Source: a virus. From it: DNA of 21,695 nucleotides. Positions 3,719 through 21,695 of the stretch are shown here, piece after piece. The notes beneath the pieces were generated by a model, which was given only the letters and a program-made list of their open reading frames with translations, searched no databases and was not told where the DNA came from. The translations under genes and the position numbers were made by a program. The stretch covers positions 1 through 21,695 of IMG/VR virus record IMGVR_UViG_3300025896_000211; one strand, given 5' to 3'. Position 1 is the stretch's first letter, and each line of letters opens with the position of its first letter.

Positions 3719-3720
3719 GG
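3717..3720 (+). promoter_or_regulatory. Shine-Dalgarno site of the gp5-like gene
   Basis: AAGG seven bases before ATG 3728; it begins within the TAA stop of the hub gene (3716-3718). Translation of hub and spike may therefore be coupled, which would suit two proteins that assemble together. Confidence 0.55.
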
Positions 3721-3727
3721 TTAATCA

Positions 3728-6700
3728 ATGAGCGATAATATAATTAAAACTACGGGCACTACAGAACAGTTTAAGCCTAATCCCGGCGGCGCAATTTCCT
3801 TTCCGTATGCAGCTAGGGGAGTAGTAAAAGATAACGTAGACACAATACGCACAGGCAGATTACGAGTTTACATTGACGATTTTGGATCACATGATCCTAA
3901 CGATAGTGAATCTTGGGTCACAGTGTCTTACCTGTCTCCTTTTTACGGTACCGCAGGGAACTTGTCATCGGATCCAATGACTGGATACGGAACATATATT
4001 AACAACCCACACTCGTATGGCTTTTGGGCCAGCAGTCCTGATATTGGAACAGAAGTTATTTGTGTTTTCTTGTATGGCAAAAAAGACTTTGGATACTATA
4101 TTGGATGCATACCAACACCAGGCTTAACTCACATGGTTCCTGCTATTGGAGCATCCACTAACATTCTTACTGGATCCGATACGGAGAGTGATAGTTTTGG
4201 TGGTGCAACTAGATTGCCTACGGTAGAAATGAATGACAAAAATGCCAAACTTTATGACGATCCAAAGTTCAATGATTCAGCTAGACCAGTGCATAAAATT
4301 ATCGCAACACAGTTTTGGCAACAGGGTTTACTTAGAGATTCTATCAGAGGTCCAATAACAAGTTCAGCATCACGTGAGTCACCTTCAAATGTGTTTGGTC
4401 TCTCAACTCCGGGAAGACCAATTTACAGCGGTGTAACAGGTGAAAATGAAGCAGAATTTACGGTCAAAATTGATCAGGCTACTAATCAACAAGCCAAAAT
4501 TATTTCAAGACGCGGCGGACATAGCTTTGTTATGGATGACGGTGACAAGTATGGGGCAGATCAATTAATTAGATTGCGAACTAGTGGTGGTCATCAAATT
4601 ACAATGAGTGATGACGGCGGTACGTTATTCATAACACACGCAAACGGTCAAAGTTATGTTGAGTTAGGTAAAGAAGGAACAGTTGATATCTATGCGACTA
4701 ACAGTTTTAATGTAAGAACAAAAGGTGATATTAATTTTCACGCCGACAACAATATAAACTTAAATGCTAAAAAATCGTTAAATGTATTTGCGGAACAAAT
4801 TAATATTAACAGTGACAAAGACACTAACTTAAGAACAGGTGAAAATTTTAGTCAGCATACTAAATCAAATTATAAGGTTAAAGTTGACAAAGGAATGAGT
4901 TTGGCTTCAACGGGAGACTCATCATTCTTAAGCAAAGCAACTACTTATATTAACGGTGGCCCTAACATAAAGCTAAACACAGGGGCATCATCGTTGATTC
5001 CAAAAGATATCGCCCCTATTCCTATAACTGCACATACTGATACTTTACTTGATAAAGCAAAGGGATGGATACCTGCTCCGGCTATGTTGACAAGCATAAC
5101 TTCACGTGCTCCGGCACACTCTCCCTGGGTTTATGCAAATTTAGGGGTTGACGTTAAAATCAATGAAAGTGCAACTGCGGCTTTTCCTTCGGATGCTTCT
5201 TCTTCTGTACAACAAGCAAACGCTGCAGTAGCATCAGCTCCAAAAAACCCAGTACAAACCAATGTTGCTGCGTCTGTTCCGGTAAACAGTGCAGTTAGTA
5301 ACACTATAGATAAAAATACAACTGCAACGTTGGTTGCTCAAACTGCTACTAATGCAGCAAGTGACCCCGTAACTAGTTCTGCAGTTGCTGCTGGATCGGG
5401 AGTTGTTACTGATTTAGCGGGTACAAAGAAGGCAATATTAGGAAAGCTTGCTCATACCCCTGAACAAATGGAAGCAGCAGGAACAATTAAACCCGGTTCT
5501 GCTACTTTGGTTGCGGCAATGATTTCGCAAGGAAAAACAATTGACCAAGCATTACCTTCAAATTTGTTTACTGGAAAAGATGGAGTTAGCAGTGTTGCTG
5601 ACTATACAAAAAATGTAAATGCTCAAACTAATAATCAAGTTGGGCTTATGCAGCAAGGCTTGCTCGCTCTTAAATCAAGCGGCTTGATATCAGGAAACGA
5701 AAGTCCAACACAGATCGGTGGGCTGGTAACTGCAACCGCAGTTGTGGGGGTCAGTGAAGTTTCATCATTTATTAAGAATAGTTCATCACCATCTGCACAA
5801 CTTGCTAGCAATGCAGGCATCGCCGCTTCTATGGCAGGTAGTAAAATAGGCGACGCAATTAGTTCAGGTAATTTTGCTGCAAATATGGCAGACAAAACAA
5901 CAAACCCTGCAGGTTCAATTGCAGCGTCAATAAAAAATACGGCTTCATCTGTTGCCGATTCGGTTAAAGGTGCTGCTTCTTCAGCTTTTAGTGCAATTAA
6001 GAACGGATTTACAAAATTAAAATCAAATGTTCCACAAAATCTAACAACATTAAATGCACAGAATCAAGCTAAGCTAGATGCAGACAGTACAAAAACAGAA
6101 GCAAAAGCTGAAGTTAAAACTAATTTTAGTGTTGCTGATATAGCTACGGCTGTAGGAACAGCGTCTCTGATTGCGGGTGCAGCCGGAGTTGAAGATGCAT
6201 TTACTATAGCAGCCTTGGCCGGAGGAATTGGTGCGATCAGTAAACTTGTCACCAACTCTAGTGCTCCTTCTGCGGCTTCTGCTGCTGATTCTGCCGGCGG
6301 AACAAGTATCGGCTCATCAATAAAATCTACAGTGAGTAATATTAGTGGTTCGCTTGTCTCTGCATCACCTGCTTCATTGGGAGAATTAGGTAACGGATTA
6401 AGTGCAACTGCTTTGCCTGGACTTAATAAGTCTCAAATTGCAGGATTGAGTAGCGCGATTCAATCAATAGGTTCAGGTGGACCACAGACTATAAAAATGC
6501 CAACAGTAGCTACAAATACAATTGACAGGTCTGATATTAATAGTCAAACCAAATCATTGTTCGGGGATTCAAGAATCCCAATGCCAACTACTGGTAATTT
6601 TAACTTTAAACCACCTTCACCTGAATTGCAACAAAAGTATGACGCAATCAAAGCAGAACTGGAAGCAAAACAAGATGCAAGATGGACACTATCTAAAGAC

Positions 6701-6844
6701 TTGAGCGATGCTAAACGTAAGTATGGTCTTGATAGCTACCAAGTTGAATCAGCCGACGTGCAGTATAAAGAATGTGTACAACGTATAGCAGAACTACAAG
6801 CAGAAAAAACTGCAGTTTCAAATCAAATACTTGCATCACTTTAA
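3728..6844 (+). CDS. gp5: Baseplate hub/tail spike protein, gp5-like, no recognisable lysozyme domain
   Basis: A 1038-residue protein. Residues about 20-140 form a gp5/VgrG-type OB-fold: SFPYAARGVVKDN, TGRLRVYIDDFGSHDP, YGFWASSPDIGTEVICVFLY, GYYIGCIPTPG. Residues about 255-420 hold short beta repeats (GGHSFVMDDG, GGHQITMSDDG, GQSYVELGKEGTVDIYA, KGDINFHADNNINLNAKKSL) typical of the trimeric needle of gp5/VgrG proteins. LTSITSRAPAHSPW (about 455) matches a motif I recall after the needle in cyanophage gp5. Next comes an alpha-helical segment at about 562-688 (HTPEQMEAAGTIKPGSATLV ... LPSNLFTGKDGVSS), then a long Ala/Ser-rich stretch, and a charged coiled coil at about 964-1038. T4 gp5 (575 aa as I recall) carries a lysozyme between OB-fold and needle; here I see none. 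The protein should pierce the outer membrane at the tip of the tube. SD AAGG at 3717; gp25 follows after 17 bases. OB-fold/needle call is confident, C-terminal function unknown. Confidence 0.85.
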   Translation: MSDNIIKTTGTTEQFKPNPGGAISFPYAARGVVKDNVDTIRTGRLRVYIDDFGSHDPNDSESWVTVSYLSPFYGTAGNLSSDPMTGYGTYINNPHSYGFWASSPDIGTEVICVFLYGKKDFGYYIGCIPTPGLTHMVPAIGASTNILTGSDTESDSFGGATRLPTVEMNDKNAKLYDDPKFNDSARPVHKIIATQFWQQGLLRDSIRGPITSSASRESPSNVFGLSTPGRPIYSGVTGENEAEFTVKIDQATNQQAKIISRRGGHSFVMDDGDKYGADQLIRLRTSGGHQITMSDDGGTLFITHANGQSYVELGKEGTVDIYATNSFNVRTKGDINFHADNNINLNAKKSLNVFAEQININSDKDTNLRTGENFSQHTKSNYKVKVDKGMSLASTGDSSFLSKATTYINGGPNIKLNTGASSLIPKDIAPIPITAHTDTLLDKAKGWIPAPAMLTSITSRAPAHSPWVYANLGVDVKINESATAAFPSDASSSVQQANAAVASAPKNPVQTNVAASVPVNSAVSNTIDKNTTATLVAQTATNAASDPVTSSAVAAGSGVVTDLAGTKKAILGKLAHTPEQMEAAGTIKPGSATLVAAMISQGKTIDQALPSNLFTGKDGVSSVADYTKNVNAQTNNQVGLMQQGLLALKSSGLISGNESPTQIGGLVTATAVVGVSEVSSFIKNSSSPSAQLASNAGIAASMAGSKIGDAISSGNFAANMADKTTNPAGSIAASIKNTASSVADSVKGAASSAFSAIKNGFTKLKSNVPQNLTTLNAQNQAKLDADSTKTEAKAEVKTNFSVADIATAVGTASLIAGAAGVEDAFTIAALAGGIGAISKLVTNSSAPSAASAADSAGGTSIGSSIKSTVSNISGSLVSASPASLGELGNGLSATALPGLNKSQIAGLSSAIQSIGSGGPQTIKMPTVATNTIDRSDINSQTKSLFGDSRIPMPTTGNFNFKPPSPELQQKYDAIKAELEAKQDARWTLSKDLSDAKRKYGLDSYQVESADVQYKECVQRIAELQAEKTAVSNQILASL

Positions 6845-6850
6845 TTACAT

Positions 6851-6854
6851 AGGA
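6851..6854 (+). promoter_or_regulatory. Shine-Dalgarno site of gp25
   Basis: AGGA seven bases before ATG 6862, in a 17-base A-rich gap after the stop of the gp5-like gene. It supports the annotated gp25 start. Confidence 0.6.
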
Positions 6855-6861
6855 AATAAAA

Positions 6862-7311
6862 ATGCCAACATATACCGGATTTAGTACACTTAACGCAAAT
6901 CAAGCTAGAACTTTAAATTTACCTGCAGGGATTGACGGCGGTGTTGGGTCAATAAACAAACCAATTGTGCCCTCAAAGAAATTCTCATTGTACGATAATC
7001 AGTTAGTGATCATTGATTTCTTAAACGCGATCAATATTCCGCAAGGCCAAAAAGTTGGAAATCCTAGCTATGGTTCAACAATTTGGTCTTTTATATTTGA
7101 ACCAAATATCCCTGAAATTCAGATCCAAATTGAAAATGAGTTAAAGCGTGTAGCTCATGCTGATCCTAGGATTATTATCAACACCGTTACAACTTATCCT
7201 AGTGACAATGGAATTCTAATTGAAATGGAGATAGCAATTTCCCCGCAAAATCAAGTCCAGCAGCTTAAGATTAACTTTGATCGTGCTACGGGAACAGCAT
7301 CCGCACAATAA
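6862..7311 (+). CDS. gp25: Baseplate wedge / sheath initiator gp25 (GPW/gp25 family)
   Basis: This 149-residue protein has the GPW/gp25 fold signature shared by contractile tails and type VI secretion (TssE): an N-terminal positioning segment ending FSLYDNQLVIIDFLNAIN, then GNPSYGSTIWSFIFEPNIPE, a helix EIQIQIENELKRVAHADPRI, and the closing beta-strands GILIEMEIAISPQ. In T4 gp25 binds gp6 and gp53 in the inner wedge and starts polymerisation of the sheath. The 'EPN' and the 'DPR(I/V)' element correspond to the conserved parts of the family as I remember it. Length is close to the family's usual 130-150 residues. The start has an AGGA site. It directly precedes gp6, its known partner, as in other T4-like marine phages. 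High confidence. Confidence 0.95.
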   Translation: MPTYTGFSTLNANQARTLNLPAGIDGGVGSINKPIVPSKKFSLYDNQLVIIDFLNAINIPQGQKVGNPSYGSTIWSFIFEPNIPEIQIQIENELKRVAHADPRIIINTVTTYPSDNGILIEMEIAISPQNQVQQLKINFDRATGTASAQ

Positions 7312-7341
7312 TCGTTCTTTAAAACCATACTTTTGGCAATT

Positions 7342-7349
7342 GATAAATA
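7342..7349 (+). promoter_or_regulatory. Candidate T4-type late promoter upstream of gp6
   Basis: GATAAATA differs at one base from the T4 late -10 element TATAAATA and fits the NATAAATA form I recall for T4-like cyanophages. It lies in the 56-bp gap 7312-7367, the widest between genes here, 18 bases before ATG 7368. Initiation about six bases downstream would leave a short leader containing the AAGAGA at 7355-7360. A perfect TATAAT overlaps at 7348-7353, but nothing like a -35 box lies at the right distance, so a phage late sigma seems likelier than sigma-70. Confidence 0.5.
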
Positions 7350-7367
7350 TAATAAAGAGAAAAACTT

Positions 7368-10300
7368 ATGGCCACAAGTTCAAGACAATCAACAATCTTC
7401 GGTGTTAACGACTGGAAAACGATATACAAAACGTTCAGTCAAGCCGATTTCCAAAGCTATGACTATGAAACATTACGTAAAAGTTTCATAGACTACTTAC
7501 GCACATTCTATCCGGAAACATTTAATGACTACATTGAAAGTTCGGAATATGTTGCGCTTTTAGACGTAATCGCATTCATGGGACAAGCCGTCGCATTCCG
7601 TGATGACTTAAACACTCGTGAAAACTTTATTGACACCGCCGAAAGACGCGACAGTGTTATTAAGCTTGCGAACCTAGTAAACTATAATCCAAAACGTAAT
7701 AGTACTGCTCAGGGCTTTCTTAAAATAACCAGTATATCAACTACTGAAAACGTAGCTGATATCAATGGGTTAAATTTATCAGGTATTCCTATTATTTGGA
7801 ATGATCCTGCAAACACTAATTGGCAAGAGCAATTTAATGCAATAATGAATGCAACTTTGGTGAACTCACAGCGTATTGGTAGACCCGGTAATTCTAATAC
7901 TATTTTAAATATCAAAACTGATGAGTATTCAATGCAGATTCCGTCAACAGTAACTCCTACCATTCCATTCAGTGCAACGATTGGTGGGGTTTCAATGAAC
8001 TTTGAGGGTATTAGTGCAACCAGTTTAAATCAAGATTATATCTACGAAGTACCACCTAAAGCAACCGGCAAATTCAATATATTATATAGAAATGACAAAC
8101 TTGGATTTGGCAGTGCAAATAACGGATTCTTTATGTACTTTAAACAAGGGTCGTTATTAACATATGATTTCTCATTGACCCAACAGATTTCAAATCAAAT
8201 AATTGATATTGGCGACATTCAAGGAATCAATGAAACTGATACTTGGTTATATAAAATAAACCCAATCACACAAGAATTAACTGAATGGAAGCAAGTTGAT
8301 AATCTATTTTCCAATGCAGAGTTGAGAACAGAAGATTCAAACAAAACAATTTTTACTGTTAAATCTAAATTTAACGATCAAGTAAGTTATATGTTTGGTG
8401 ACGGTATATTCAGTGAAATTCCATTAGGTTCGTTTAGAAGTTTAGTCAGATCAAGCAATGCACTACAGTATTCAATTGACCCTGTTGAGATTCAAGGAAC
8501 AACCTTAACATTCACTTATATCAGCAGAGTAAACAGACCTGAGACATTAACTATTACCGTTGAGCTAATGCAGCCGGTTAATAATGCTCAAACACGTGAG
8601 TCAATTGCAGATATCAAACTAAAAGCACCAGTTAAGTATTACTCACAGAATCGTATGGTAAATGGTGAAGATTATAATAACTTCCCGTATACACTTTATA
8701 GTTCTATTATAAAAAGTAAATCTGTTAACCGTAGTTCTATTGGAGTCTCAAGAAATTTTGACTTATTAGACCCTACTGGAAAATATTCAAGTACTAACAG
8801 TTTTGCAGAAGACGGTGCATTATATCTTTCAACTGAGGATCAGTTTTATTCGTTCAGTGGAATCGCTGGTACAGGTACAGCGATAAAGTTATTTACTAAT
8901 CAGATTTTATCTATTGCATCAAGTAGAAACTTATTGCAACATTATACTGCAACTTTTCCTAGATATTTTCCTTTACAAAATAATAATTCAACTAGTTGGA
9001 AACAAACTTCTTACGATGCAACTAATGTAACCGGTTTCTTTGAAAGTCAATCAGTTTCTATTCCAATTGGTATTTTTAATTCAAGTACTATGAAGTATGT
9101 AACTGCAGGTGCACTTATTAAGTTTATTGCACCAAGCGGATTCTATTTTAAAGATAATAGATTAGTTTCGGGGTCACCAACACCAAATGACGTTACTTAC
9201 TTATGGACTAATGTAATTAATGTAGTTGAAGATGGATATAACGGTGGATTAGGAAACTTGGCAAATGGATTAGGTCCAGTAAGTTTAAGTAAATTTATCC
9301 CAACTGGTGCAATAGTTGATACTATTATTCCTGCATTTGATAATGTACTACCAAGAGTAGTTGTTCAGAATATGATTGATCGTTTTAATTTAGATCAAAG
9401 TTTCACATTAAATTATGTAAACAGTGTGCCAGTTAATGCACAGCGTTGGTTCGTTGGAGAGTATTCTGAATCCAACTACTTAATTAACTTTCAAAGTTTA
9501 GGTAATGGTAGATATTTGATAACTAATAAAGCTATTACATATTACTTTGGAAGTGTTAAAGACACAAGATTTATATTTGATAATGACAAAATAATATTTG
9601 ATCCTGCTAGCGGAACAACTGCATACGATTCAGTTACTGTGCTGAAAACTAACTCGTCGCCTAACAGCAGCGCAAGTTTGGGAGCAAATGCTGTACTATC
9701 AGTTGTGGGCAAAACTGTTGAAGCTGATGGCTACCCCGATGATTACTCAATAGAAATCAGTAGCATTGATCCAAAGAATAATCTTCTTATTGGTAACCCT
9801 GATTTCTTTACTGAAATCACCGGATTCTCGCAAGGGTCAACTAATACAACACATTTTGTATTTTTGAAAAAGGTAACCGACGCTAACAAGTTAATGAAGA
9901 ATGAATTAGTTACTTCATCTACTATTGTAGGTGCATATGAAACTCAAAATCAAGTTGAGGTTGTAAAATACGAATACCCAATTGGCCAAGTATTTTATGC
10001 ATTTATGGAAAATAAATTTTACCAAACGGTTATTGACTCAACTGCACAAAATATTTTGAATTTAATTGAGCGTACTAATTATGTTGCTCTTACTGGTCGT
10101 CAGGGATTGTTCTTTCAATACAAGCACAACAGCAACAATACTTCTAGAATAGATCCAGCAACAACAAATATTATTGATTTATATTTGGTCACCCAAGCAT
10201 ATTATACGCAATATCAAAATTGGTTGAATGACACAACTAGTGCATTGTCTGAACCTAACATGCCAACAATGGATGAGTTAAGTCAGTCGTACAGTAAAAT

Positions 10301-10718
10301 CAACGACTATAAAATGTTAAGTGATAGTGTAATTTTTAATAGTGTGAAATTTAAACCTTTATTTGGTAACAAAGCTGAACCAAAGTTAAGAGCTACGTTA
10401 AAAGTTATTAAATCATCGGTCACAACAGCTAGTGATAGTGAAATTCGTTCTGCTGTACTTTCCAATATGAATATATACTTTAGTATTCGTAATTGGGACT
10501 TTGGTGATACCTTTTACTTTAGTGAGTTAAGTGCTTACTTACACAGTAAAATAGGTGATATAATTAATTCGGTAGTTTTAGTACCAAATGACCCTTCACT
10601 GACGTTTGGTGATCTATATGAAATAAGATGCGCGCCTTTTGAAATTTTTGTAAATGGTGCACAAGCAACAGATATCGTGGTTATCTCTGCGCTAACCGCA
10701 AATGAATTACAATCATAA
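7368..10718 (+). CDS. gp6: Baseplate wedge protein gp6 (enlarged)
   Basis: An 1116-residue gp6, the baseplate-J-type wedge protein that forms the inner ring of the baseplate. The N-terminus is a clear match: FGVNDWKTIYKTFSQADFQS, IDYLRTFYPETFNDYIESSE, LLDVIAFMGQAVAFRDDLN and RENFIDTAERRDSVIKLANL. The central core has MFGDGIFSEIPLGSFRSLVR (about 342-361), NAQTRESIADIKLKAPVKYY and SQNRMVNGEDYNNFPYTLYS (about 426-445), ending in DPTGKYS. The C-terminus carries NWDFGDTFYFSELSAYLHSK and INSVVLVPNDPSLTFGDLYE, the dimer-forming end of gp6. T4 gp6 is 660 aa as I recall; the extra length lies mostly between about 470 and 980, a beta-rich stretch with no motif I recognise. ATG 7368 has only a weak purine-rich site (AAGAGA). 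Gp25 lies upstream and the giant structural gene starts 11 bases after the stop. High confidence. Confidence 0.95.
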   Translation: MATSSRQSTIFGVNDWKTIYKTFSQADFQSYDYETLRKSFIDYLRTFYPETFNDYIESSEYVALLDVIAFMGQAVAFRDDLNTRENFIDTAERRDSVIKLANLVNYNPKRNSTAQGFLKITSISTTENVADINGLNLSGIPIIWNDPANTNWQEQFNAIMNATLVNSQRIGRPGNSNTILNIKTDEYSMQIPSTVTPTIPFSATIGGVSMNFEGISATSLNQDYIYEVPPKATGKFNILYRNDKLGFGSANNGFFMYFKQGSLLTYDFSLTQQISNQIIDIGDIQGINETDTWLYKINPITQELTEWKQVDNLFSNAELRTEDSNKTIFTVKSKFNDQVSYMFGDGIFSEIPLGSFRSLVRSSNALQYSIDPVEIQGTTLTFTYISRVNRPETLTITVELMQPVNNAQTRESIADIKLKAPVKYYSQNRMVNGEDYNNFPYTLYSSIIKSKSVNRSSIGVSRNFDLLDPTGKYSSTNSFAEDGALYLSTEDQFYSFSGIAGTGTAIKLFTNQILSIASSRNLLQHYTATFPRYFPLQNNNSTSWKQTSYDATNVTGFFESQSVSIPIGIFNSSTMKYVTAGALIKFIAPSGFYFKDNRLVSGSPTPNDVTYLWTNVINVVEDGYNGGLGNLANGLGPVSLSKFIPTGAIVDTIIPAFDNVLPRVVVQNMIDRFNLDQSFTLNYVNSVPVNAQRWFVGEYSESNYLINFQSLGNGRYLITNKAITYYFGSVKDTRFIFDNDKIIFDPASGTTAYDSVTVLKTNSSPNSSASLGANAVLSVVGKTVEADGYPDDYSIEISSIDPKNNLLIGNPDFFTEITGFSQGSTNTTHFVFLKKVTDANKLMKNELVTSSTIVGAYETQNQVEVVKYEYPIGQVFYAFMENKFYQTVIDSTAQNILNLIERTNYVALTGRQGLFFQYKHNSNNTSRIDPATTNIIDLYLVTQAYYTQYQNWLNDTTSALSEPNMPTMDELSQSYSKINDYKMLSDSVIFNSVKFKPLFGNKAEPKLRATLKVIKSSVTTASDSEIRSAVLSNMNIYFSIRNWDFGDTFYFSELSAYLHSKIGDIINSVVLVPNDPSLTFGDLYEIRCAPFEIFVNGAQATDIVVISALTANELQS

Positions 10719-10729
10719 TTGGACAAATA

Positions 10730-13700
10730 ATGGTAACAAAAGTTAGAACACTTGAATTTCTTCCTGATATATTCAGAACCACCCCTAATCAGCAATTTTT
10801 AACTGCTACATTAGATCAATTAGTGCAGCAACCAAATATAACTCGCATGCAGGGTTATATTGGTCGCCAATTTGAATACGGGATTAATTCAAATGATAGT
10901 TATATCACAGAGCCAACAAAAGCCAGAACAAATTATCAATTAGAGCCTGCGGTTGTTTTCACTAAAGAACAAACTAGTACTGCAAGTGATTTTATAACTT
11001 ATCCTGAAATGCTAGACTCTCTAAAACTAGAGGGTGGTCCTGTTGCTAAAAATTCTAGCCTGTTCTCAAATCAATTTTATTCATGGGACAGTTTTACTGA
11101 TTTAGATAAACTCATCAACTTTAATCAGTATTATTGGTTACCAAACGGACCTGATCCAGTTGAAGTAAGACCTAGTATTCTTGACTACCTTGTAGATTAT
11201 AATGTGAGTCAAGATATTACTAACGCATTTACTTTCACTGCAGACAATGAAGTAGTAGAAGGATTAAACCCAACTCTTACCTTATTACGCGGTGGCAAAT
11301 ATACGTTCAGCACAAAACAATTTGGAAATTTTTGGATTCAAACTATTCCTGGTATTACAGGAACTGATCCAAACCGCCCTAACATAAGCACTCGTTCTAT
11401 ATTTGGTGTTACTGCAAATGGCGCGCAAAACAATGAAACAATTACATTCCAAGTACCGGCAGTTGATGCGCAAAACTCAGATGTATATCCGGGCAATAAT
11501 AGAGTAGACTTGGTTGCAACTGTACCGTTTGATAAAATTCACGGAAAAAGATTAAGTGAAGTTCAAAACATTGATGGCATTACAATTCTTAACAATAAGT
11601 CTTTGATGTTTTATGGTTTCCCGTCGGCAACAGTTGGAAACATAACTAGACTATATGATGATGAATTATTTGACGGTGACATCAACACTATAGTAAGTTT
11701 TGATGAGGTTGATCAAACTGATGTAACAACTAAATTCTATCGTATTGTTTATAATGACGGCACAAACCCAGGTGATCCAGTAATAATTCTTTCAGAAATA
11801 GGATCAATCCCAACTAATGAAAAGATTACCGTTTCGTATGGAACTTTGTTTAGCACAACTGATTTTGTAAAAAATCCATATGGTGTTATTTCTATAATTC
11901 CTACAGTAACGGCACCGATCAGTACATTGTATTATCAGGATGGAACAAATCCAAGTAAGTTTGGTATTATTAAATTAATAGAAGGTCAAACAAATAATTT
12001 TATTGATCTTGATTCAGAAGTGCTAGGCAAGAAAACATATGTAAGTCCAAATGGGGTTACATTTACTAATGGCTTGAAAGTTACATTTTCTGGAAACATT
12101 TTCCCTGCTAGTTATCAAACAGGACAATACTATGTTGAAGGTGTTGGCTCTAGTATAACATTGCACTCAGTTTTAGATTATGTAGTCCCTGAAAAATTTA
12201 CACAACAAGTTTATAGTGCATACGATATCGATCCATACGATACTTCAAACTTTGGATCAACTGTAAATGTTCCTGTTCTTAAAGATTATATTACCGTTAG
12301 CAGAAATGCAAACAGTAAAAATGCATGGTCACGAAGCAATCGTTGGTTCCACGTTGGAGTTCTTACTGAAGTAGTCAAGCATAATTCTACTGCATCAGTC
12401 CTTGCTGTGTTGAATAGTGATGCAAGCAGAGCAAAACGTCCTATTATTGAATTCTACCCAAACATAAAATTATTTGATTCTGGCACTGTTGGCAAAGGTA
12501 AAGTGTCATTTATTGATACTACATCAACTGATGCATTTAATCAAGTATCCGGCACGACCTCATATTTCCCTGATGGATCACAGTTTCAATTAACTGAAGG
12601 TAGCACTATAATTTTTGCAAACGATAAAAATCTATCGGTTCGTAACAAAATATATTCAGTAAATTTTGTGTCAATTACAGGTTCATCCGCTCCGGTAATT
12701 TCGTTAGCCAAAACAGTTAACGGGGATGTTACATTTGATGATCAAGTTGTTATTTTTGAAGGTGATCAGAACAAAGGGAAAAGCTTTTACTTTGACGGGT
12801 CAAATTGGAAAGAAGCACAGCAAAAAATAAATGTAAATCAGCCACCTTTATTTGATATTTTTGATCAAAACGGATTAAGTTTAAGCGATACTGATTACTA
12901 TCAAAGTAGTGACTTTCTTGGTTGTACACTATTTGAATATGCAATTGGAACAGGTTCCGATGATATAGTATTGGGATTTCCGTTAAAGTATAACACTGTA
13001 AATAATATCGGTGATATTGGATTTTCTGTTTCACTTAACGCTAACACATTTAATTACGTAGTAAACAACCAGTCAGTTACTGAAAAAGTTAGCATTGGAT
13101 ACCCGCATCTTTTCAATAACAGAACAGACTTCTCTAGACAATTAGGTTGGCAAACTGCTGCAGGAGAAAGCTTTCAGTATCAAGCATTTGACTTTTCGTA
13201 CAATCCAGCGTCATTAAACAATGCTGAATTCTTGTGCGATGTTCCTGCAAAGGCAAGCGGCTCAACTAATTGGCAACCAATTAGAGTCATCGTAAATTCA
13301 ACTGTACTTGCTCAGTCACAGTATATCGCTGTGGTTACTGATTCTGCAACTACTATAACGTTGAACACCAATCCCACAACAGATACTCAAATTCAAATAT
13401 TGATTTACAGTGATGTTGCAAGCACAAGTGGTGCTTATTATACTATACCTAGTAACTTAGCAAACAATCCGTTCAATACACAGATTAGCACTTTGAATTT
13501 AGGTGATGTAAGAGGTCACTATCAAAGTATTTGTGTTAATAGTAACCAAATTCAAGGAACAATTTTCGGCCCTAATAATTTTAGAGACTTGGGTAATCTT
13601 GTTCCGTTTGGTAATAAAATTATTCAAAGTAGCGCACCACTGCCATTGATGGGTGCCTTCTTGCGTAATAAAAATTATAACTTAATTGATTCACTTACCT

Positions 13701-16700
13701 ATAGCGGTGACGAGTATGTTAAGTTTAAAACTTTGTTGCTAGATACCATTAACAAAACTAGCTATGATGTGTTGCAATCAAACGCAAGCATCTTAGATGA
13801 TGCATTGAATCAAATTGCTGCGTATAAGAGCGAAAGTAATTCATTCTTTTGGTCAGATATGCTACCAAATAGAAGTGCTCAAACAAGCAACACCTATAGA
13901 TATAATTCAGCAGCAAGCAATGTTTTTTATTCGTTGAGTAAGATTTATGACTTTACTTCAGCAAACTATGATAGCGTCTTAGTTTATTTGATTCGCACAG
14001 TTCAGGGTGTTACACGTACAATTCAACTTGTAAGAGGTAAGGATTATATTGTTAGCAGTACTGATCCAAAAGTAACTATATTTGCAAGTTTGCAGTTAGG
14101 TGATCATATTGTAATCAATGAATATAATCAAACTTACGGAAGCTTTGTTCCAAATACACCTACAAAGTTAGGTTTCTTGCCAGCAGCAGTTCCTGAAATT
14201 GTACTTGAAACTAATTATCTGTCACCTACTTACTTTATTAAAGGCCATGACGGTTCTCTTACTAAACTATACGGTAGCTATAACGAAGGCTTCTTGGAAG
14301 ATTTTAGAGATCGTGCGTTGTTTGAATTTGAATTAAGAATCTATAACAATATAAAAGTAGATGCTGCACTCCCTGTTCTTGCTGATGATGTATTCCCTGG
14401 ACAGTTTAGAACAACTTCATATTCGTACTCTGATATTATGGGTCTTTACTCAATATTCTTTTTGAACTGGGTAGGAAAAAACAGAGTAGAATACAAACCG
14501 CAATATTATTTGACAGATAATCAGTACACATGGAATTACAATCAAACAGCAAGCAAATTAGATACTACTAATTTTAAACAAGGTAACTGGAAAGGTATTT
14601 ACAGATGGTACTATGACACTGTTACACCTGATTCAACCCCTTGGGAAATGATAGGATATGTAAGCAAGCCACTTTGGTGGGAAACTAGATACGGTGAAGC
14701 TCCGTATACAAGCGACAACTTGTTGCTGTGGAATGATATGGAACTTGGCTTTGACTACAACGGTGGTGATTCAAGAATATTACCGCATAAAGCAAGACCT
14801 GGATTATTAAATGTATTACCAGTTGACAGTGAAGGTAAACTTGCTGGACCAATGAATGCAGTAGTCGGTAGCTATGATTCAGTAAGCTTTAGTAGAGATT
14901 GGAAAGTGGGAGACTGTGGACCAGCAGAGTATAGCTATCTAAAAAGTAGTACATGGGCATTTGATTTAGTAAAGATACTTGCGTTATGCAAACCTGCAAA
15001 ATTCTTTGCTCTTGGTCAAAACTTAGACACATATAAATTCAATGCTGAGTTCAACCAGTATTTGGTTAATGACCGATATAGATTGTCAACTGTGAGCAGT
15101 GTTGACTATGGTAGTGGCAAAGCCCAACACAGTTATTTAAATTGGATCGTTGATTATGTTCAAAGCACCGGTGCAACTGGGACAGACAAGTTAAACTCTT
15201 TATTAAGCAATTTGGATGTTAGATTAACATACCGATTAGCTGGCTTTAGTGACAAAGATTTATTAAACTTTTATGTGGAACGTTCATATTCAGATAGAAC
15301 ATCAACCTCTACTAATAATACAAAATCATTAATGGTTCCAAACGAAAGCTATTCAGTATTATTGCACGAGAATCAACCGTTCAGCAATATTCAGTATAGT
15401 GGAGTAATTGTACAAAAAACTGAAAATGGATTTAAAGTTTATGGTAATAGCCAAAACAAAATATATTTTACAACATTTAGTCCACTGATAAACGGAAACT
15501 ATAGAAACATAACCGTATCCGATCTAACAGTATTTGTAAGCAAGAACTTTACTAAAACTGAAATCATTGTTCCTTATGGAACTGAGTTTAATTCTGCGCA
15601 AGCATTAGCTGAGTTTATTGCAAACTACGGAAGATATTTGACCGAACAAGGTATAAAGTTTGAGAACATAGAAAACAATATTGTAATTGATTGGAATCAG
15701 ATTATTTCTGAAGTACTTTACTGGATTCAATCTGGATGGGAAGTCGGCGCAGTTATAAATGTAAACCCGATTGCTAAACAATTAGTTATTGACAAAGAAA
15801 GTAGCATTGTTCAACCACTTACAATTCAAAATCAAAACTATATACTAAATCAGGATCTAATCCCGATTCAGTTAAAAGACATGGCTATCAATCGTGATGG
15901 TACAATCTTTACTGCTGCACCATTAAATGACGGTGACGCGATTTCTTATTTTACTGTTAACTTAAGTAACATAGAGCATGCGATTGTTTTTGATAACACT
16001 ACAATATTCAATGATCTGTTATTTGATCCAAGCACCGGATTACGTCAAAATAGAATGATGGTAAAGGGCAGAAAAACCGCCGAATGGACTGGTACCCTTG
16101 ACACACAGGGCTTTATACTAAATCAAGATAACATACAAGAGTGGGCGGTTAACACAAAGTACACTAAAGGAATTATCGTAAAGTTCAAGAATGACTATTG
16201 GTTAGCTAATTCAATTATTCAACCTAGTGACTCTTTCCAACAACAGTATTGGGTTAAGACCCCTTATGAAAAAATACAAAAGGGGCTACTACCAAATGCA
16301 AGTAGCAGAGCATACGAAGCTTCATTATTTTATGACTCAACTTTATCTAATTTAGATTCAGATTCTGATATTTTAAGTTTCTCTTTAATTGGTTACAGAC
16401 CAAGAAATTATTTAGCATCCGCTAATATAAGTGAAATCTCGCAAGTTGGTTTTTACAAATCATTTATTGCAGAAAAGGGAAGCAAGAATAGTTTAACTTC
16501 AGTTGAAGGAATTACTCTATCTACCGGAGCACTACAATTTACTGCATACGAAAATTGGGCAATTAGAACAGGTCAGTATGGTGGTGTGTTAAATCAAAAC
16601 TTTATTGAATTCAAACTAGACGAAAAACAATTGCGCGGAAATCCAAACATCGTTGGAATTGTTGATGATTCAACACCTGCAGGCTTAATGCAAGTTGTTC

Positions 16701-19700
16701 CGTTATACTCATTAACAAATTATAATCAACCGATTGCAAATACTGATATTCTACCAGTACGCAGTAACAGCGAATTGATTCAATTGCCAACAGCAGGCTA
16801 TGTGAATTTCAATGATGTAGCAATGAATGCATTTACATTCATGGGATTGAATGATACTTCTGCTCCAATATCAGAACTATATAAGAATGAATATGTTTGG
16901 GTAGCAGATCATAAAGGTACTTGGAATGTTTATACTCCGGTTCCGGTAACTTTCTCAAAGAGTCCAGTTCAAGCTGTGCGGGTAAACAATAATCTTAATA
17001 GTACTGTTACTGTGCTATTTGATAATCCGCATGGATTAGTCAGTGATGACTTGATTATGATTTTAAACTTTGGGTCAACAGTTGATGGATTATACGAGGT
17101 ATTGAATGTTAACGGAAATAATTCCGTTGTAATCAGTCTATCGCTGCCAGCTAGTATTCAAACAACAAATGGAACTGGAATTGTAGCAAAGTTTGAAAGT
17201 CAACGTGTTGCAACACCAAAAGATATTGAGTCATTGGCTTTATTAGACAGCGAATTTGTCAAGAATAAAGTATGGGTTGATAATGGAGTTAACGGAGATT
17301 GGGCAGTTTATAGAAAGAGTATAAACTACAAACATTTAGATGGATTAACTAAACCTGAAAGCACATTGACATTTGGTAGCTCAATGGTTTACGATAAAAG
17401 ACAAGGGTATTTTGTCGGTGATGCCGAAGCAGGAGTTGTTTATCAATACTCGCACTTTAATAATAGATTTGCATTAGACAATACATTTGTTAAGTCAGCA
17501 GGCTTCGGCGCAGCAATGGCAAAATCAAATAGCACATTAGTTATTACTCAACCTCAGAATGGTAGAGACAGTAACAATATTGCGGTTGCAAGTATCATTC
17601 GTGTATACTCGCTTGTATCAACTAGTAAAATACAAACAGTTGCGCTTCAGCAAGAGATTACATTTGCGTCCAAGCTCGTAGGTAACGCTATCACATTGTC
17701 CGGTGATTCAAAATGGATGTTTGTTTCAGCAACTGCAAGTAATGAAGTGTTAGTTTATTCACGTAATTATAACCCTACACTTGTTGCAACAGAACTTTAT
17801 ACTGATGTTAATATAGCAGCAGGCGATAATAGTTTTGTTATCGCAGGAGAGAATGCAGCAACATTTACCCCGGGCACAAATGTAAGTTTCAGCAATATGC
17901 TCACTGGTAAAACATATTTGGTTGTTACTTCAAAATATGAAAGTTCAACTGATCGTACTACGATATATTTGGACAGTGCAATCGCGACTGATGTAACCTC
18001 CGGTACTGCTGTTTATACTGCAACTTTTGAATTTGTGCTCACCAAAACGTTAACAGTTTCAAATCTTGCATCAAATGATAAGTTTGGTTATTCATTGTCA
18101 ACTAATTATGATGGTAGCAAACTATTTGTCGGTACACCAGAAAAAGACTTTAGTTCAACTTACACCAACACTGGTTTTGTTTATATGTTTGATAGAACTT
18201 GCCAAATATTTGAGCATAGCTATAACACTTTGGTGGGGCAATCAACCGTGTTTACATTAGCATGGCAACCAGCAACAACGTTAACAGTTACACTAAACGG
18301 AGTTGAACTACAAAGTTCACAGTTTACATTAACTGATATTGTAAAACTTAGTATAAAAGTTCAGGTTAATGCAGGGGATATTGTCAAAGTTAGCTCAAGT
18401 GACTTTATTAATACTCAAACATTAAGCGGTTATACTGAATCTGCTACTCCAAGAGTAGGAATTAAGTTTGGTAACTCAATAGATAATAACACAAGCGCAA
18501 ACGAATTTATTGTAGGTGCACCTTTTGATATTAGCGAATCTAATATTGAAGGAAGTGTGTATCGTTATACCAATGGTGGTAAAAAATACGGAATCATTAT
18601 TGGTGAAACTGCAGTAAACTTAACTGCTGCAGCAACCATCTTGATTAACGGATATGCAGTAACTTTACCTGCAGGTACTGTCAATGGTGCTGTAACTGCA
18701 ATTAACAATGCAAACGTAACTAATGTAAAAGCTAGCGCAACAACTGATTCAAAACTAATAATTCAATTGATTAACTTAGATTTAAGTCCCATTAATGATA
18801 AGTTAAGTATCAATGTATTTGATAAAACTGTTTTAGTAGATTTGGGTATTGTTGAATATAAATTGACACAGATTTTACATGATATAAATCAACAAAATGC
18901 TACTCAATTTGGTTACACTGTAAAATATAACGAGCATAACTCTTTTGTAGTTAGCGCCCCAGTTGGAATCAGATATACTTCAACTTCATTTGATTTTACT
19001 GACGACGAAGTATATACCAATGATACTATATTTGATAATAATTTTACTGTTTGGGTTGACAATTTTGACAACGCTGGCGCAGTTTATATGTTTGACTATT
19101 TACCAGCATATAATGAAAGCTTAACAAATACTGGAAAGTTTGTACTAGCTCAAACAATTAATGATACTATATCACAAATTGGACCAAGACCATATTACGG
19201 TGAGACATTGGCGTTCAGTGATTACACCGTTGTAGTTGGCTCACCAACTTACTATTCAGGTACAGTTAATGGTAGTGTAACGGCATATCAAAATGCTGAA
19301 AATCAACCCAACTGGTCAATATATCGTACCTCTGAACAAGTAGTTGATATTAATAAACTACAGTCAATTCAGCTATTTGATAACACAACTAACGAAAAAT
19401 TAGATTCGTTAGATTATATTGATCCGCTACAAGGTAAATTGTTTGGTGTAGTCAGAGAGAACTTAGACTTTATCTCAAATATTGATCCAGCAGGATATAA
19501 CACTGAAATAAGAAATAACAAGATTGTATGGGCTGAGAATTTCGTTGGCAAACTATGGTTTGACACAACCTATACACGATTTGTTGATTATCATCAAAAT
19601 GACGTAGTTTATAATAGTGAATATTGGGCAAACGTATTCCCTGGCAGCACTGTTGCAATCTATACATGGATTGAAAGTGATGTAATGCCAATGAACTATG

Positions 19701-21695
19701 CAGGTACCGGCACTCCATACGACTTGGATGCTTACACAACTGCATTTGATTTAGATAATACCGGAGCTGTTGTTACCCGTTATTATTATTGGGTAAGAAA
19801 TACTGACACTATCGTTGACAAAAAAGAAAAGACTCTTACTGATTCAGTTATCGCGTCTTATATTTCTAATCCTCAAAGTTCGGGAATAAGTTTCTTTGCA
19901 CCGTTCAGTCCGAATGTGTTTGGTTTATATAACTGTAACGAATTTATCAATTCAACTACAACTAGTGTTCACGTTGGATTTAAATCAGGTAACAATGACG
20001 ATACAGTACATAATCAATTCCAACTTATCAGAGATGGTTTTGCAGGTGATTTCTTAACTGGATTCCCTACATCTGTTAACACAATTACTGATCCGCAAGA
20101 CTTGTATCTAAAGATGCTAGAAAGCTTATCAGGAGTTGACAATCAAGGACAAGTTTTACCTAATCCATATTTGCCAAGTCAGTTAAGAACTGGTGTATTA
20201 AAAAGACCAAATCAAAGTTTCTTTATTGATAGATTATCTGCGTTAGAAAATTACTGTAACTATGCAAATAGAGTATTGTTACAGTATCCAATTACTGAAA
20301 TCAAAAATCCAAGCTTCTTGAATTTGGGAGTTACTGCAACTGCCGGAGCTGGCGCCCCAATCATGTTTACTACATCGGGTGAGTACTTTGATACTAATGA
20401 TTACTGGGAATATGTTTATTGGTACGCTGCTGGATTTAGTAATAACACTAGAACTGATCTAGAAGTTCCAAAATATTATGACTTAGTAAAACTTAATGCT
20501 GTTGAGAATATGGTTGTTGGTGTACTCAGCAACAGTGACGGGAAGCGTGAAATCTATAAGTACACTTCGGGTGAATGGATTAGAGTTGGCCTTCAACAAG
20601 GTACTATTCAAATCAAGAGTTCACTATGGGATTATAGTTTGGTTAATCGCGGATTTGGCAGCGAGTTCTTTGATACTATGATGTTTGATAATTATCCTTC
20701 AACTGAAACCATGTACATTATACGTGGCTTGAATGAAGAAGTATTTACCGGCGATTTGTTAGTACATCGCAACAAGAGTTTAATTTTGTTATTTGAATAC
20801 ATTACCGGTGAAAGCACTGAATCACAAAACTATTTGCCTTGGCTGAATAAAACAAGTTTCATGAATGTTCAACATACTATGCGTGAACTAACTGATACTA
20901 CTTTATATCAAAGTGACGATGAAGTTTTCTTAGAAGGTTACTTGAATGAAGTTAAACCATATCACGTTATCATTAAAGAGTTCAGCCTAAGATATACACG
21001 CACTGAAGTTTATAACAGTAATGTTACTGACTTTGATTTACCTGCAATGTTTAACGCTAAGCTAGAAAGATTTACGACACCTGAATTAACATTTGTTAGT
21101 ACAGCAGGTGACGACCAATTCTTACCTTTGGATGATATTTGGTCCACTAATATAAATTACGCAACTTGGTTTGAAAATTACGGACTTGCTTTAACCGGTA
21201 GCATTGCCTCTGAAATAACTAGAGTCAATAGTTATGTGTACTTAACTTCAAATCAAATTGAAGTTAATAATGCATTTGGATTTCCAATATCGGGTACAAT
21301 TAGAATAGATCAAGAAATAATCGGTTATTCAAACGTAGATCGTGATAACGGAATATTGTTTGGATTATCAAGAGGATTACAAGACTCACCTGTATCAGAT
21401 CACGCAGAAAATTCAATAATTTATATGGATCTACCAGGAGCAATCGTACTTAACTCAGGTAGAGATTACATTGACCCACCTGTTATTACAGCTTATATAG
21501 ATACTGCCATCTATCCAGCACCAAGAACAGTTGCAAAATTGCGACCAATCATGCTAGCCGGACAAGTAATTGGGGTAACAGTAATTAATCCGGGTAGTGG
21601 TTACGCGATTACACCTGAGCTAATCGTTGCTCCTTCGGTTGCAGTAGAATTTGCAGATACTGACATAAACTACATTGAATATACTATAACTGCTG
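10730..21695 (+). CDS. Giant modular virion structural protein downstream of gp6 (3' end outside window)
   Basis: I followed this frame codon by codon from ATG 10730 to the right edge without a stop: at least 3655 residues. TTGGA seven to eleven bases upstream is a weak ribosome-binding site. The N-terminus (VRTLEFLPDIFRTTPNQQFL, then LDQLVQQPNITRMQGYIGRQ, and YSWDSFTDLDKLINFNQYYW) matches large uncharacterised structural proteins I recall from T4-like marine phages. Further blocks are a cupredoxin-like segment (168-246), WSRSNRWFHVGV and RAKRPIIEFYPNIKLFD (about 530-580), QPPLFDIFDQNG (about 704), GNWKGIYRWYYD (about 1285), VPYGTEFNSAQALAEF through DWNQIISEVLYWIQSGWEVG (about 1610-1675), IVFDNTTIFNDLLFDPSTG (about 1752-1770), a probable beta-propeller (2215-2854), EVKPYHVIIKEFSLRYTR (about 3407-3424), TDFDLP, and IRIDQEIIGYSNVDRD (about 3524). 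It occupies the place of gp7 in T4, but I see no gp7 signature. Probably a peripheral wedge or fibre-like baseplate component; function unknown. Confidence 0.85.
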   Translation, partial: MVTKVRTLEFLPDIFRTTPNQQFLTATLDQLVQQPNITRMQGYIGRQFEYGINSNDSYITEPTKARTNYQLEPAVVFTKEQTSTASDFITYPEMLDSLKLEGGPVAKNSSLFSNQFYSWDSFTDLDKLINFNQYYWLPNGPDPVEVRPSILDYLVDYNVSQDITNAFTFTADNEVVEGLNPTLTLLRGGKYTFSTKQFGNFWIQTIPGITGTDPNRPNISTRSIFGVTANGAQNNETITFQVPAVDAQNSDVYPGNNRVDLVATVPFDKIHGKRLSEVQNIDGITILNNKSLMFYGFPSATVGNITRLYDDELFDGDINTIVSFDEVDQTDVTTKFYRIVYNDGTNPGDPVIILSEIGSIPTNEKITVSYGTLFSTTDFVKNPYGVISIIPTVTAPISTLYYQDGTNPSKFGIIKLIEGQTNNFIDLDSEVLGKKTYVSPNGVTFTNGLKVTFSGNIFPASYQTGQYYVEGVGSSITLHSVLDYVVPEKFTQQVYSAYDIDPYDTSNFGSTVNVPVLKDYITVSRNANSKNAWSRSNRWFHVGVLTEVVKHNSTASVLAVLNSDASRAKRPIIEFYPNIKLFDSGTVGKGKVSFIDTTSTDAFNQVSGTTSYFPDGSQFQLTEGSTIIFANDKNLSVRNKIYSVNFVSITGSSAPVISLAKTVNGDVTFDDQVVIFEGDQNKGKSFYFDGSNWKEAQQKINVNQPPLFDIFDQNGLSLSDTDYYQSSDFLGCTLFEYAIGTGSDDIVLGFPLKYNTVNNIGDIGFSVSLNANTFNYVVNNQSVTEKVSIGYPHLFNNRTDFSRQLGWQTAAGESFQYQAFDFSYNPASLNNAEFLCDVPAKASGSTNWQPIRVIVNSTVLAQSQYIAVVTDSATTITLNTNPTTDTQIQILIYSDVASTSGAYYTIPSNLANNPFNTQISTLNLGDVRGHYQSICVNSNQIQGTIFGPNNFRDLGNLVPFGNKIIQSSAPLPLMGAFLRNKNYNLIDSLTYSGDEYVKFKTLLLDTINKTSYDVLQSNASILDDALNQIAAYKSESNSFFWSDMLPNRSAQTSNTYRYNSAASNVFYSLSKIYDFTSANYDSVLVYLIRTVQGVTRTIQLVRGKDYIVSSTDPKVTIFASLQLGDHIVINEYNQTYGSFVPNTPTKLGFLPAAVPEIVLETNYLSPTYFIKGHDGSLTKLYGSYNEGFLEDFRDRALFEFELRIYNNIKVDAALPVLADDVFPGQFRTTSYSYSDIMGLYSIFFLNWVGKNRVEYKPQYYLTDNQYTWNYNQTASKLDTTNFKQGNWKGIYRWYYDTVTPDSTPWEMIGYVSKPLWWETRYGEAPYTSDNLLLWNDMELGFDYNGGDSRILPHKARPGLLNVLPVDSEGKLAGPMNAVVGSYDSVSFSRDWKVGDCGPAEYSYLKSSTWAFDLVKILALCKPAKFFALGQNLDTYKFNAEFNQYLVNDRYRLSTVSSVDYGSGKAQHSYLNWIVDYVQSTGATGTDKLNSLLSNLDVRLTYRLAGFSDKDLLNFYVERSYSDRTSTSTNNTKSLMVPNESYSVLLHENQPFSNIQYSGVIVQKTENGFKVYGNSQNKIYFTTFSPLINGNYRNITVSDLTVFVSKNFTKTEIIVPYGTEFNSAQALAEFIANYGRYLTEQGIKFENIENNIVIDWNQIISEVLYWIQSGWEVGAVINVNPIAKQLVIDKESSIVQPLTIQNQNYILNQDLIPIQLKDMAINRDGTIFTAAPLNDGDAISYFTVNLSNIEHAIVFDNTTIFNDLLFDPSTGLRQNRMMVKGRKTAEWTGTLDTQGFILNQDNIQEWAVNTKYTKGIIVKFKNDYWLANSIIQPSDSFQQQYWVKTPYEKIQKGLLPNASSRAYEASLFYDSTLSNLDSDSDILSFSLIGYRPRNYLASANISEISQVGFYKSFIAEKGSKNSLTSVEGITLSTGALQFTAYENWAIRTGQYGGVLNQNFIEFKLDEKQLRGNPNIVGIVDDSTPAGLMQVVPLYSLTNYNQPIANTDILPVRSNSELIQLPTAGYVNFNDVAMNAFTFMGLNDTSAPISELYKNEYVWVADHKGTWNVYTPVPVTFSKSPVQAVRVNNNLNSTVTVLFDNPHGLVSDDLIMILNFGSTVDGLYEVLNVNGNNSVVISLSLPASIQTTNGTGIVAKFESQRVATPKDIESLALLDSEFVKNKVWVDNGVNGDWAVYRKSINYKHLDGLTKPESTLTFGSSMVYDKRQGYFVGDAEAGVVYQYSHFNNRFALDNTFVKSAGFGAAMAKSNSTLVITQPQNGRDSNNIAVASIIRVYSLVSTSKIQTVALQQEITFASKLVGNAITLSGDSKWMFVSATASNEVLVYSRNYNPTLVATELYTDVNIAAGDNSFVIAGENAATFTPGTNVSFSNMLTGKTYLVVTSKYESSTDRTTIYLDSAIATDVTSGTAVYTATFEFVLTKTLTVSNLASNDKFGYSLSTNYDGSKLFVGTPEKDFSSTYTNTGFVYMFDRTCQIFEHSYNTLVGQSTVFTLAWQPATTLTVTLNGVELQSSQFTLTDIVKLSIKVQVNAGDIVKVSSSDFINTQTLSGYTESATPRVGIKFGNSIDNNTSANEFIVGAPFDISESNIEGSVYRYTNGGKKYGIIIGETAVNLTAAATILINGYAVTLPAGTVNGAVTAINNANVTNVKASATTDSKLIIQLINLDLSPINDKLSINVFDKTVLVDLGIVEYKLTQILHDINQQNATQFGYTVKYNEHNSFVVSAPVGIRYTSTSFDFTDDEVYTNDTIFDNNFTVWVDNFDNAGAVYMFDYLPAYNESLTNTGKFVLAQTINDTISQIGPRPYYGETLAFSDYTVVVGSPTYYSGTVNGSVTAYQNAENQPNWSIYRTSEQVVDINKLQSIQLFDNTTNEKLDSLDYIDPLQGKLFGVVRENLDFISNIDPAGYNTEIRNNKIVWAENFVGKLWFDTTYTRFVDYHQNDVVYNSEYWANVFPGSTVAIYTWIESDVMPMNYAGTGTPYDLDAYTTAFDLDNTGAVVTRYYYWVRNTDTIVDKKEKTLTDSVIASYISNPQSSGISFFAPFSPNVFGLYNCNEFINSTTTSVHVGFKSGNNDDTVHNQFQLIRDGFAGDFLTGFPTSVNTITDPQDLYLKMLESLSGVDNQGQVLPNPYLPSQLRTGVLKRPNQSFFIDRLSALENYCNYANRVLLQYPITEIKNPSFLNLGVTATAGAGAPIMFTTSGEYFDTNDYWEYVYWYAAGFSNNTRTDLEVPKYYDLVKLNAVENMVVGVLSNSDGKREIYKYTSGEWIRVGLQQGTIQIKSSLWDYSLVNRGFGSEFFDTMMFDNYPSTETMYIIRGLNEEVFTGDLLVHRNKSLILLFEYITGESTESQNYLPWLNKTSFMNVQHTMRELTDTTLYQSDDEVFLEGYLNEVKPYHVIIKEFSLRYTRTEVYNSNVTDFDLPAMFNAKLERFTTPELTFVSTAGDDQFLPLDDIWSTNINYATWFENYGLALTGSIASEITRVNSYVYLTSNQIEVNNAFGFPISGTIRIDQEIIGYSNVDRDNGILFGLSRGLQDSPVSDHAENSIIYMDLPGAIVLNSGRDYIDPPVITAYIDTAIYPAPRTVAKLRPIMLAGQVIGVTVINPGSGYAITPELIVAPSVAVEFADTDINYIEYTITA
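11231..11467 (+). other. Cupredoxin-like segment in the giant protein
   Basis: Residues 168-246 of the giant protein read as a short beta-sandwich: NPTLTLLRGGKYTFSTKQFG, NFWIQTIPGITG, STRSIFGVTANGAQNNETIT and TFQVP. The spacing of 'L-x-R-G-x-x-Y-T-F', 'F-W-I-Q-T' and 'G-x-x-x-F-x-V-P' resembles cupredoxin domains. No His-Cys-His-Met copper ligands are visible, so if the fold is right it is structural rather than redox-active. The call rests on pattern recognition only. Confidence 0.45.
17372..19291 (+). repeat. Seven degenerate FG-GAP-type repeats in the giant protein, probable beta-propeller
   Basis: Residues 2215-2854 contain seven diverged units of pattern (F/Y)G-x-S ... hydrophobic-VG-x-P ... 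G-x-V-Y-x-(Y/F). Approximate DNA spans: 17372-17461 (FGSSMVYDKRQGYFVGDAEA), 17504-17617 (FGAAMAKSNSTLVITQPQNG), 17678-17764 (SGDSKWMFVSATASNEVLVY), 18083-18196 (FGYSLSTNYDGSKLFVGTPE), 18467-18580 (FGNSIDNNTSANEFIVGAPF), 19031-19099 (FTVWVDNFDNAGAVYMFDYL) and 19196-19291 (YGETLAFSDYTVVVGSPTYY). Units 3 and 6 are weakest. Seven units is the number for an integrin-type propeller. Units 3-4, 4-5 and 5-6 are separated by roughly 90-150 extra residues, i.e. inserted beta-rich domains. The D-x-D-x-D calcium loops of classical FG-GAP repeats are mostly absent. Confidence 0.55.
18638..18772 (+). other. Flagellin/hook IN-motif-like insertion between propeller repeats 5 and 6
   Basis: Residues 2637-2681 read ILINGYAVTLPAGTVNGAVT, then AINNANVTNVKAS and KLIIQLI. 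This matches the layout of the Flagellin_IN motif of hook-associated proteins: a strand ending ING, a second strand, a helix ending AIN, then V-x-A-S and a final L-x-I strand. The segment sits in the longest inter-blade insertion. It is short and the match is by eye. Confidence 0.4.

Follow-up and report, generated by a model that had tools for sequence, protein, structure and literature searches.

Seven-bladed propellers are already known at jumbo-phage baseplates from phiKZ gp131C (PDB 4GBF), which lies at the baseplate periphery and has been proposed, though not proven, to bind a receptor (PMC4901313). In phage phi11, a beta-propeller of the receptor-binding protein (RBP) is the probable receptor-binding part at the baseplate (PMC4901313). 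The seven-bladed nozzle propeller of SU10 carries the dock for the short tail fibres and lines the tail channel (PMC9509320). By analogy, phi11 RBP and, unproven as yet, phiKZ gp131C (PMC4901313) may serve as precedents for adhesion, and the SU10 nozzle (PMC9509320) as one for docking or a channel role. Our literature search found no paper joining FG-GAP repeats with jumbo phages or phage tail fibres.

Here we describe a predicted FG-GAP-type propeller within a giant virion protein of an uncultured giant phage. The DNA studied, hereafter the window, comprises positions 1-21,695 of virus record IMGVR_UViG_3300025896_000211 (21,695 nucleotides in all). By ORF calling and profile matches, it consists of tail genes, all on one strand:

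815-1120, plus strand: gp53-like baseplate wedge protein (phrog_7145, E 2e-21)
1142-3718, plus strand: structural protein, between the gp53-like and gp5-like genes
3728-6844, plus strand: gp5-like baseplate hub protein (phrog_13211, E 5e-33)
6862-7311, plus strand: gp25-like baseplate wedge protein (phrog_43; PF04965, E 1e-4)
7368-10718, plus strand: gp6-like baseplate wedge protein (phrog_10646, E 8e-249; phrog_219)
10730-21694, plus strand: giant virion protein ORF, phrog_10938 family (E 1.1e-267), truncated at the window end with 3655 aa present
13280-16669, plus strand: upstream part of the conserved scaffold (residues 851-1980), common to RaK2, PBECO4, PA5oct, Atu_ph07, SCTP-2 and Phosso
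19310-21694, plus strand: conserved scaffold downstream of the module (residues 2861-3655), running on past the window end

No PADLOC defence family was matched. The giant ORF starts with ATG at 10730 and meets no stop up to the window end, giving 3655 aa. Since contig IMGVR_UViG_3300006805_000068 (L001) carries a copy with 99.9% identity that reaches 5285 aa, the protein in the window is incomplete. The phrog_10938 profile matches along the giant protein and the homologues of PA5oct and Atu_ph07 belong to the same family; by its sequence, the protein is a member of the giant virion-protein family of RaK2/PA5oct/Atu_ph07-type jumbo phages. Its conserved part has homologues in 57 phage records, every one below 60% identity, including PA5oct, RaK2, PBECO4/121Q, GAP32, CBB, Atu_ph07, SCTP-2 and Phosso. 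As in the window, the gp6-like wedge gene lies directly 5' of the giant gene in RaK2, PBECO4, PA5oct, Phosso and Atu_ph07. The gene for T4 gp7 also stands directly after gp6, in the order 53-5-(25)-6-7, but the giant protein is about three to six times longer. A profile comparison with T4 gp7 found no similarity (hhalign probability 0.4%, with a reversed control no worse). In one relative (L036) the giant protein is encoded by two overlapping ORFs, 3587-14383 (3599 aa) and 14326-21078 (2251 aa), and the same is seen in L106; either the gene is truly divided, or a frameshift or an error in the sequence has broken the frame.

Mass spectrometry has found homologues of the giant protein in virions. 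The record of PA5oct gp355 bears an ESI-MS/MS note. Virions of phAPEC6 contain a 382-kDa protein adjoining a baseplate wedge protein, with 17 unique peptides (PMC7247149), and those of CBB contain the structural protein CBB_236, with 21 unique peptides, beside the wedge protein CBB_237 (PMC5259590); we took phAPEC6 gp245 and CBB_236 as homologues from size and gene order. All three homologues are without the propeller or are not known to carry one. Gene order and these mass-spectrometry records support the original prediction that the giant protein is baseplate-associated; the module would presumably lie in the baseplate wedge. The scaffold itself was modelled poorly (residues 1080-2062, pLDDT 55, pTM 0.31) and gave no significant fold match. 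A small Trp/Tyr-rich stretch at residues ~1800-1845 (window ~16127-16264) may be the source of weak matches of this model to chitin-binding domains of chitinases, and one relative (phage PAC2) carries the annotation chitin-binding type-3.

For the module set between the two scaffold parts, computation established which repeat family it belongs to, its fold and number of blades, where the domain begins and ends, its restriction to one clade and its variability. Residues 2198-2860 form seven degenerate FG-GAP-type repeats; the limits first given, 17372-19291, had the right place and were slightly too narrow. The parts are as follows:

17321-19309, plus strand: seven-bladed FG-GAP-type beta-propeller module (2198-2860), from FG-GAP_2, model, structural alignment and joined-flank profile
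17327-17353, plus strand: predicted N-terminal closing ('velcro') strand completing blade 7 (2200-2208; model strand 26-34, alignment range 24-694)
17366-17491, plus strand: blade 1 (2213-2254), from model and unit alignment
17504-17665, plus strand: blade 2 (2259-2312), from model and unit alignment
17678-17773, plus strand: blade 3 strands A-C (2317-2348), with strand D at 18023-18052; from the model, most degenerate unit
17774-18022, plus strand: blade 3 C-D hairpin insert (2349-2431), least conserved part, low model confidence
18083-18214, plus strand: blade 4 strands A-C (2452-2495), with strand D at 18380-18427; Pfam-recognised unit
18215-18379, plus strand: blade 4 C-D hairpin insert (2496-2550), from model and family alignment
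18467-18574, plus strand: blade 5 strands A-C (2580-2615), with strand D at 18857-18880; from model and unit alignment
18575-18856, plus strand: blade 5 C-D hairpin insert (2616-2709), a small alpha/beta domain, confidently folded in the model and conserved
18908-19159, plus strand: blade 6 (2727-2810), from model and unit alignment
18959-19078, plus strand: blade 6 acidic B-C loop (2744-2783), bearing a family motif, low pLDDT
19196-19294, plus strand: blade 7 strands A-C (2823-2855), from model and unit alignment

Searched with the module alone, Pfam FG-GAP_2 (PF14312) scored 27.6 and 30.0 bits against a curated cut-off of 23, and it matched all 27 module relatives at E <= 0.01; by score, the module belongs to this family. 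On the whole 3655-aa protein the same profile reached 17.1 bits only. Pfam FG-GAP (PF01839) had no match in the window, and phage records searched with the module alone, as DNA and as protein, returned none. A pattern of FG/YG, a hydrophobic strand and G/S-T/A/S/Q-P, composed after the units had been inspected, occurs five times in the 3655 residues, always within 2190-2870; shuffled module sequence gave a mean of 0.31 and a maximum of 3 (2000 shuffles). The FG/YG start is retained in 27/27 sequences for units 1, 5, 6 and 7. Units 4, 5 and 7 had been named as the best, which held, with unit 6 clear as well; unit 3 is the most degenerate, its GAP-like turn gone in most of the 27 sequences. When the window units were searched singly, as had been suggested, Pfam recognised unit 4 and none of the other six, so that the count of seven rests on fold and family alignment. 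Single-unit profiles built from the 27 relatives match one another in a patchy but clear manner (units 4 and 5, E 7e-11).

Residues 2175-2885 were modelled with AlphaFold2 from an alignment of 27 sequences. The model (pTM 0.77, mean pLDDT 72, blade cores mostly at 80-95) shows seven blades of four strands each in a closed ring, with residues 2200-2208 forming the outer strand of blade 7; low confidence is found mainly at the ends, in the blade 3 insert (2349-2430) and in the blade 6 loop. The model and the family alignment agree with the repeat number first proposed, and the FG-GAP_2 matches, the predicted structure and its integrin alignment support a single closed seven-bladed propeller of FG-GAP/integrin-like type. 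Three inserts (2349-2431, 2496-2550 and 2616-2709) split strands C and D of blades 3, 4 and 5. The original prediction had expected insertions at blade junctions; the model puts them in the C-D hairpins instead, and since each sits between strands C and D, they would line the outer edge of adjacent blades.

In VIA-align, the best match of the model was the integrin alpha-M propeller (Z 35.8, 345 residues, 3.0 A, 19% identity); among the 50 chains listed, the top 16 were all integrins and the next was a WD40 protein at Z 32.5. The Foldseek top matches were integrin alpha as well, and an independent profile search of PDB sequences gave integrin alpha-M chains exclusively, but weakly (E 0.21-0.59). 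Because a WD40 protein reaches 32.5, most of the structural score reflects the general propeller fold; the preference for integrin over other propellers is modest, and agrees with the FG-GAP_2 match and the weak integrin alpha-M profile matches. As modelled, the module resembles the integrin alpha propeller in its seven FG-GAP-type repeats, closed ring and N-terminal strand closing blade 7. Integrin alpha has calcium loops, whereas no strict DxDxDGxxD loop was present in the 24 module sequences examined; a relaxed search found a few matches in four relatives and none in the window. In part of the integrin family, alpha-I domains are inserted between blades 2 and 3, unlike the module inserts, which the model places in the C-D hairpins of blades 3-5. 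Lacking the calcium loops and having its inserts elsewhere, the module is not an integrin; it also sits, unlike integrin alpha, inside a phage virion protein.

The module also has sequence relatives among stand-alone phage genes. The module HMM matches Atu_ph07 gp320 and Phosso protein 129, and the former, annotated 'hemagglutinin' and encoded next to a gene annotated tail sheath, matches FG-GAP_2 at 5e-18 and is among the matches of the model in a viral fold library. On this evidence the module is related in sequence to these FG-GAP_2 propellers, which are of the same repeat family but are separate genes of ~393 aa, unfused to the giant protein. Elsewhere in Phosso (PV764938.1, 48338-57826 and 57900-68978, minus strand; L132), a pair of adjacent proteins of ~3,160 and ~3,690 aa, both annotated hypothetical, together contain several dozen FG-GAP_2 repeats, a number that would allow each to form more than one propeller. 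The module HMM does not match phiKZ gp131, which has a weak RCC1-like match rather than FG-GAP and carries its propeller C-terminally in its own 771-aa protein; 4GBF is not among the 50 chains listed in VIA-align, which is uninformative either way. The phi11 RBP differs as well, being a five-bladed, trimeric receptor-binding protein of a phage of a different host class.

The propeller module was found in nearly all full-length closer relatives. Aligned with the giant proteins of six cultured phages, the window protein is collinear on both flanks and broken at the module, and the module HMM found nothing convincing in these six. A profile joining residues 2100-2197 directly to 2861-2960 crosses the junction unbroken in PA5oct (2267-2393, 6e-23), SCTP-2 (2358-2472) and the viral contig L115 (5074-5183); in RaK2, PBECO4, Atu_ph07 and Phosso it matches mainly on the downstream side. 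Because the joined flanks match across these propeller-free junctions, the module is a discrete clade-specific domain, inserted at or cleanly lost from one loop, and its restriction to the clade of closer relatives would favour gain over loss. Between the conserved flanks lie approximately 130 residues in RaK2 and PBECO4, 320 in PA5oct, 410 in SCTP-2, 880 with the propeller in the window clade, 1,520 in Atu_ph07 and Phosso and 2,900 in L115. The L115 interval (residues 2187-5091, ~2,900 residues) includes a glycine/proline-rich stretch, and a Pfam search of it gave no convincing family. A LamG-like reading of the SCTP-2 insert, made from the letters, was dropped as no Pfam family matched. We tentatively suggest that the giant protein may have a dedicated site at which lineages exchange unrelated modules, and that stand-alone FG-GAP propeller genes of phages may have supplied the propeller captured at this site; host-contact parts would then evolve by domain capture in a core baseplate protein, and not just in tail fibres.

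Conservation is uneven across the module. When 24 full-length relatives are compared, conservation across the giant protein is lowest in the 250-residue stretch that starts at residue 2201; for the three closest relatives, the corresponding start is nearly the same, 2229. Counting gaps as differences, mean identity is 23% over residues 2198-2445, ~50% on both flanks and 51% over 2721-2860, the low identity of blades 1-4 being owed partly to inserts; blades 1-3 alone have 32%, against 54% in the upstream core. Blades 1-3 with the blade 3 insert are the least conserved part of the giant protein, and the loop inserts differ from relative to relative. In blades 5-7 and the blade 5 insert, conservation is roughly at the level of the scaffold. 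The blade 6 loop, 40 residues long, carries the acidic motif TTFDxxDDxxYxNDTxFDNNxT in almost every relative; this points to a partner that stays constant or to a metal site.

Two recurring elements were seen among the relatives. A mobile ~45-residue motif (AGSFVVGKTYTITSLGTTDFxxIGAxxNTVGxxFxATGxGTGTGTA) occurs in various propeller loops and elsewhere in their giant proteins: near residue 2354-2465 in L018, L025, L026 and L027, also in L007, L013, L017, L019 and L023, in L021 and L035, and at residues 654 of L032, 723 of L040 and 5604 of L006. It is in tandem once (L026), and the window is without it. A ~90-residue domain (..PIVFTGxxFGGVxLNTVYYI..) forms tandem copies far from the propeller, at about residues 3900-4400 and 320-420 of the relatives' giant proteins, and also lies within the blade 4 C-D insert of relatives; it is absent from blade 4 in the window.

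We favour, at a probability of roughly 0.55, the reading that the module is an exposed part for adhesion or docking to a variable partner. The closed ring of FG-GAP_2 type, with the integrin-alpha fold and no calcium loops, is a discrete domain that interrupts a loop of the giant protein. Its two ends would lie together, so that it would stand out from the scaffold like a knob borne on a short stalk. Of its blades, 5-7 would face or touch the conserved scaffold, and the variable half, blades 1-3 with the blade 3 insert, would be exposed as the adhesion or docking surface, the partner most likely being a cell-surface or fibre component that differs among these phages. The binding platform at the baseplate rim that was originally envisaged is plausible, as it fits the pattern of variability. 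However, the variability of blades 1-4 could reflect relaxed constraint and not host adaptation. The conserved acidic loop of blade 6 counts against our reading, as it argues that at least one face may have a constant partner.

The propeller might otherwise be a purely structural hub, a rigid ring that binds other virion proteins such as fibres or pins and never the host, like podophage nozzle proteins. Here the SU10 nozzle propeller is a precedent (PMC9509320), and the acidic blade 6 loop, blades 5-7 and the blade 5 insert all match the scaffold in conservation. Such a role is possible though less likely, given that blades 1-3 are the least conserved in the protein, that the inserts change among relatives and that assembly of the cultured relatives needs no propeller here. 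It is very unlikely that the propeller is an enzyme acting on the cell surface, for example a lyase or hydrolase of glycans. Enzymes do exist among seven-bladed propellers, four of the 27 relatives also weakly match the Lactonase family and the acidic blade 6 loop could hold a metal, but most matches are to FG-GAP_2 and integrins, any one enzyme family was matched by a few of the 27 at most, and no catalytic residues were identified. That the module is a row of separate beta-sandwich domains, closed into a ring by AlphaFold2 habit, is scarcely credible, for although one unit alone passes Pfam individually and the alignment is 27 sequences deep, this reading is opposed by the pTM of 0.77 with high blade confidence, by an alignment to integrin propellers that spans the whole ring with its closing strand and by the profile similarity from unit to unit.

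To conclude, giant proteins of this kind are annotated merely as 'virion structural protein' or 'hypothetical protein', and the module now provides a concrete domain with boundaries, open to expression and testing. On our preferred reading of adhesion or docking, it would be turned outward from the baseplate. The propeller site marks a point of strong divergence among jumbo phages within an otherwise conserved giant protein, and is relevant to the way in which uncultured giant phages encounter their hosts.
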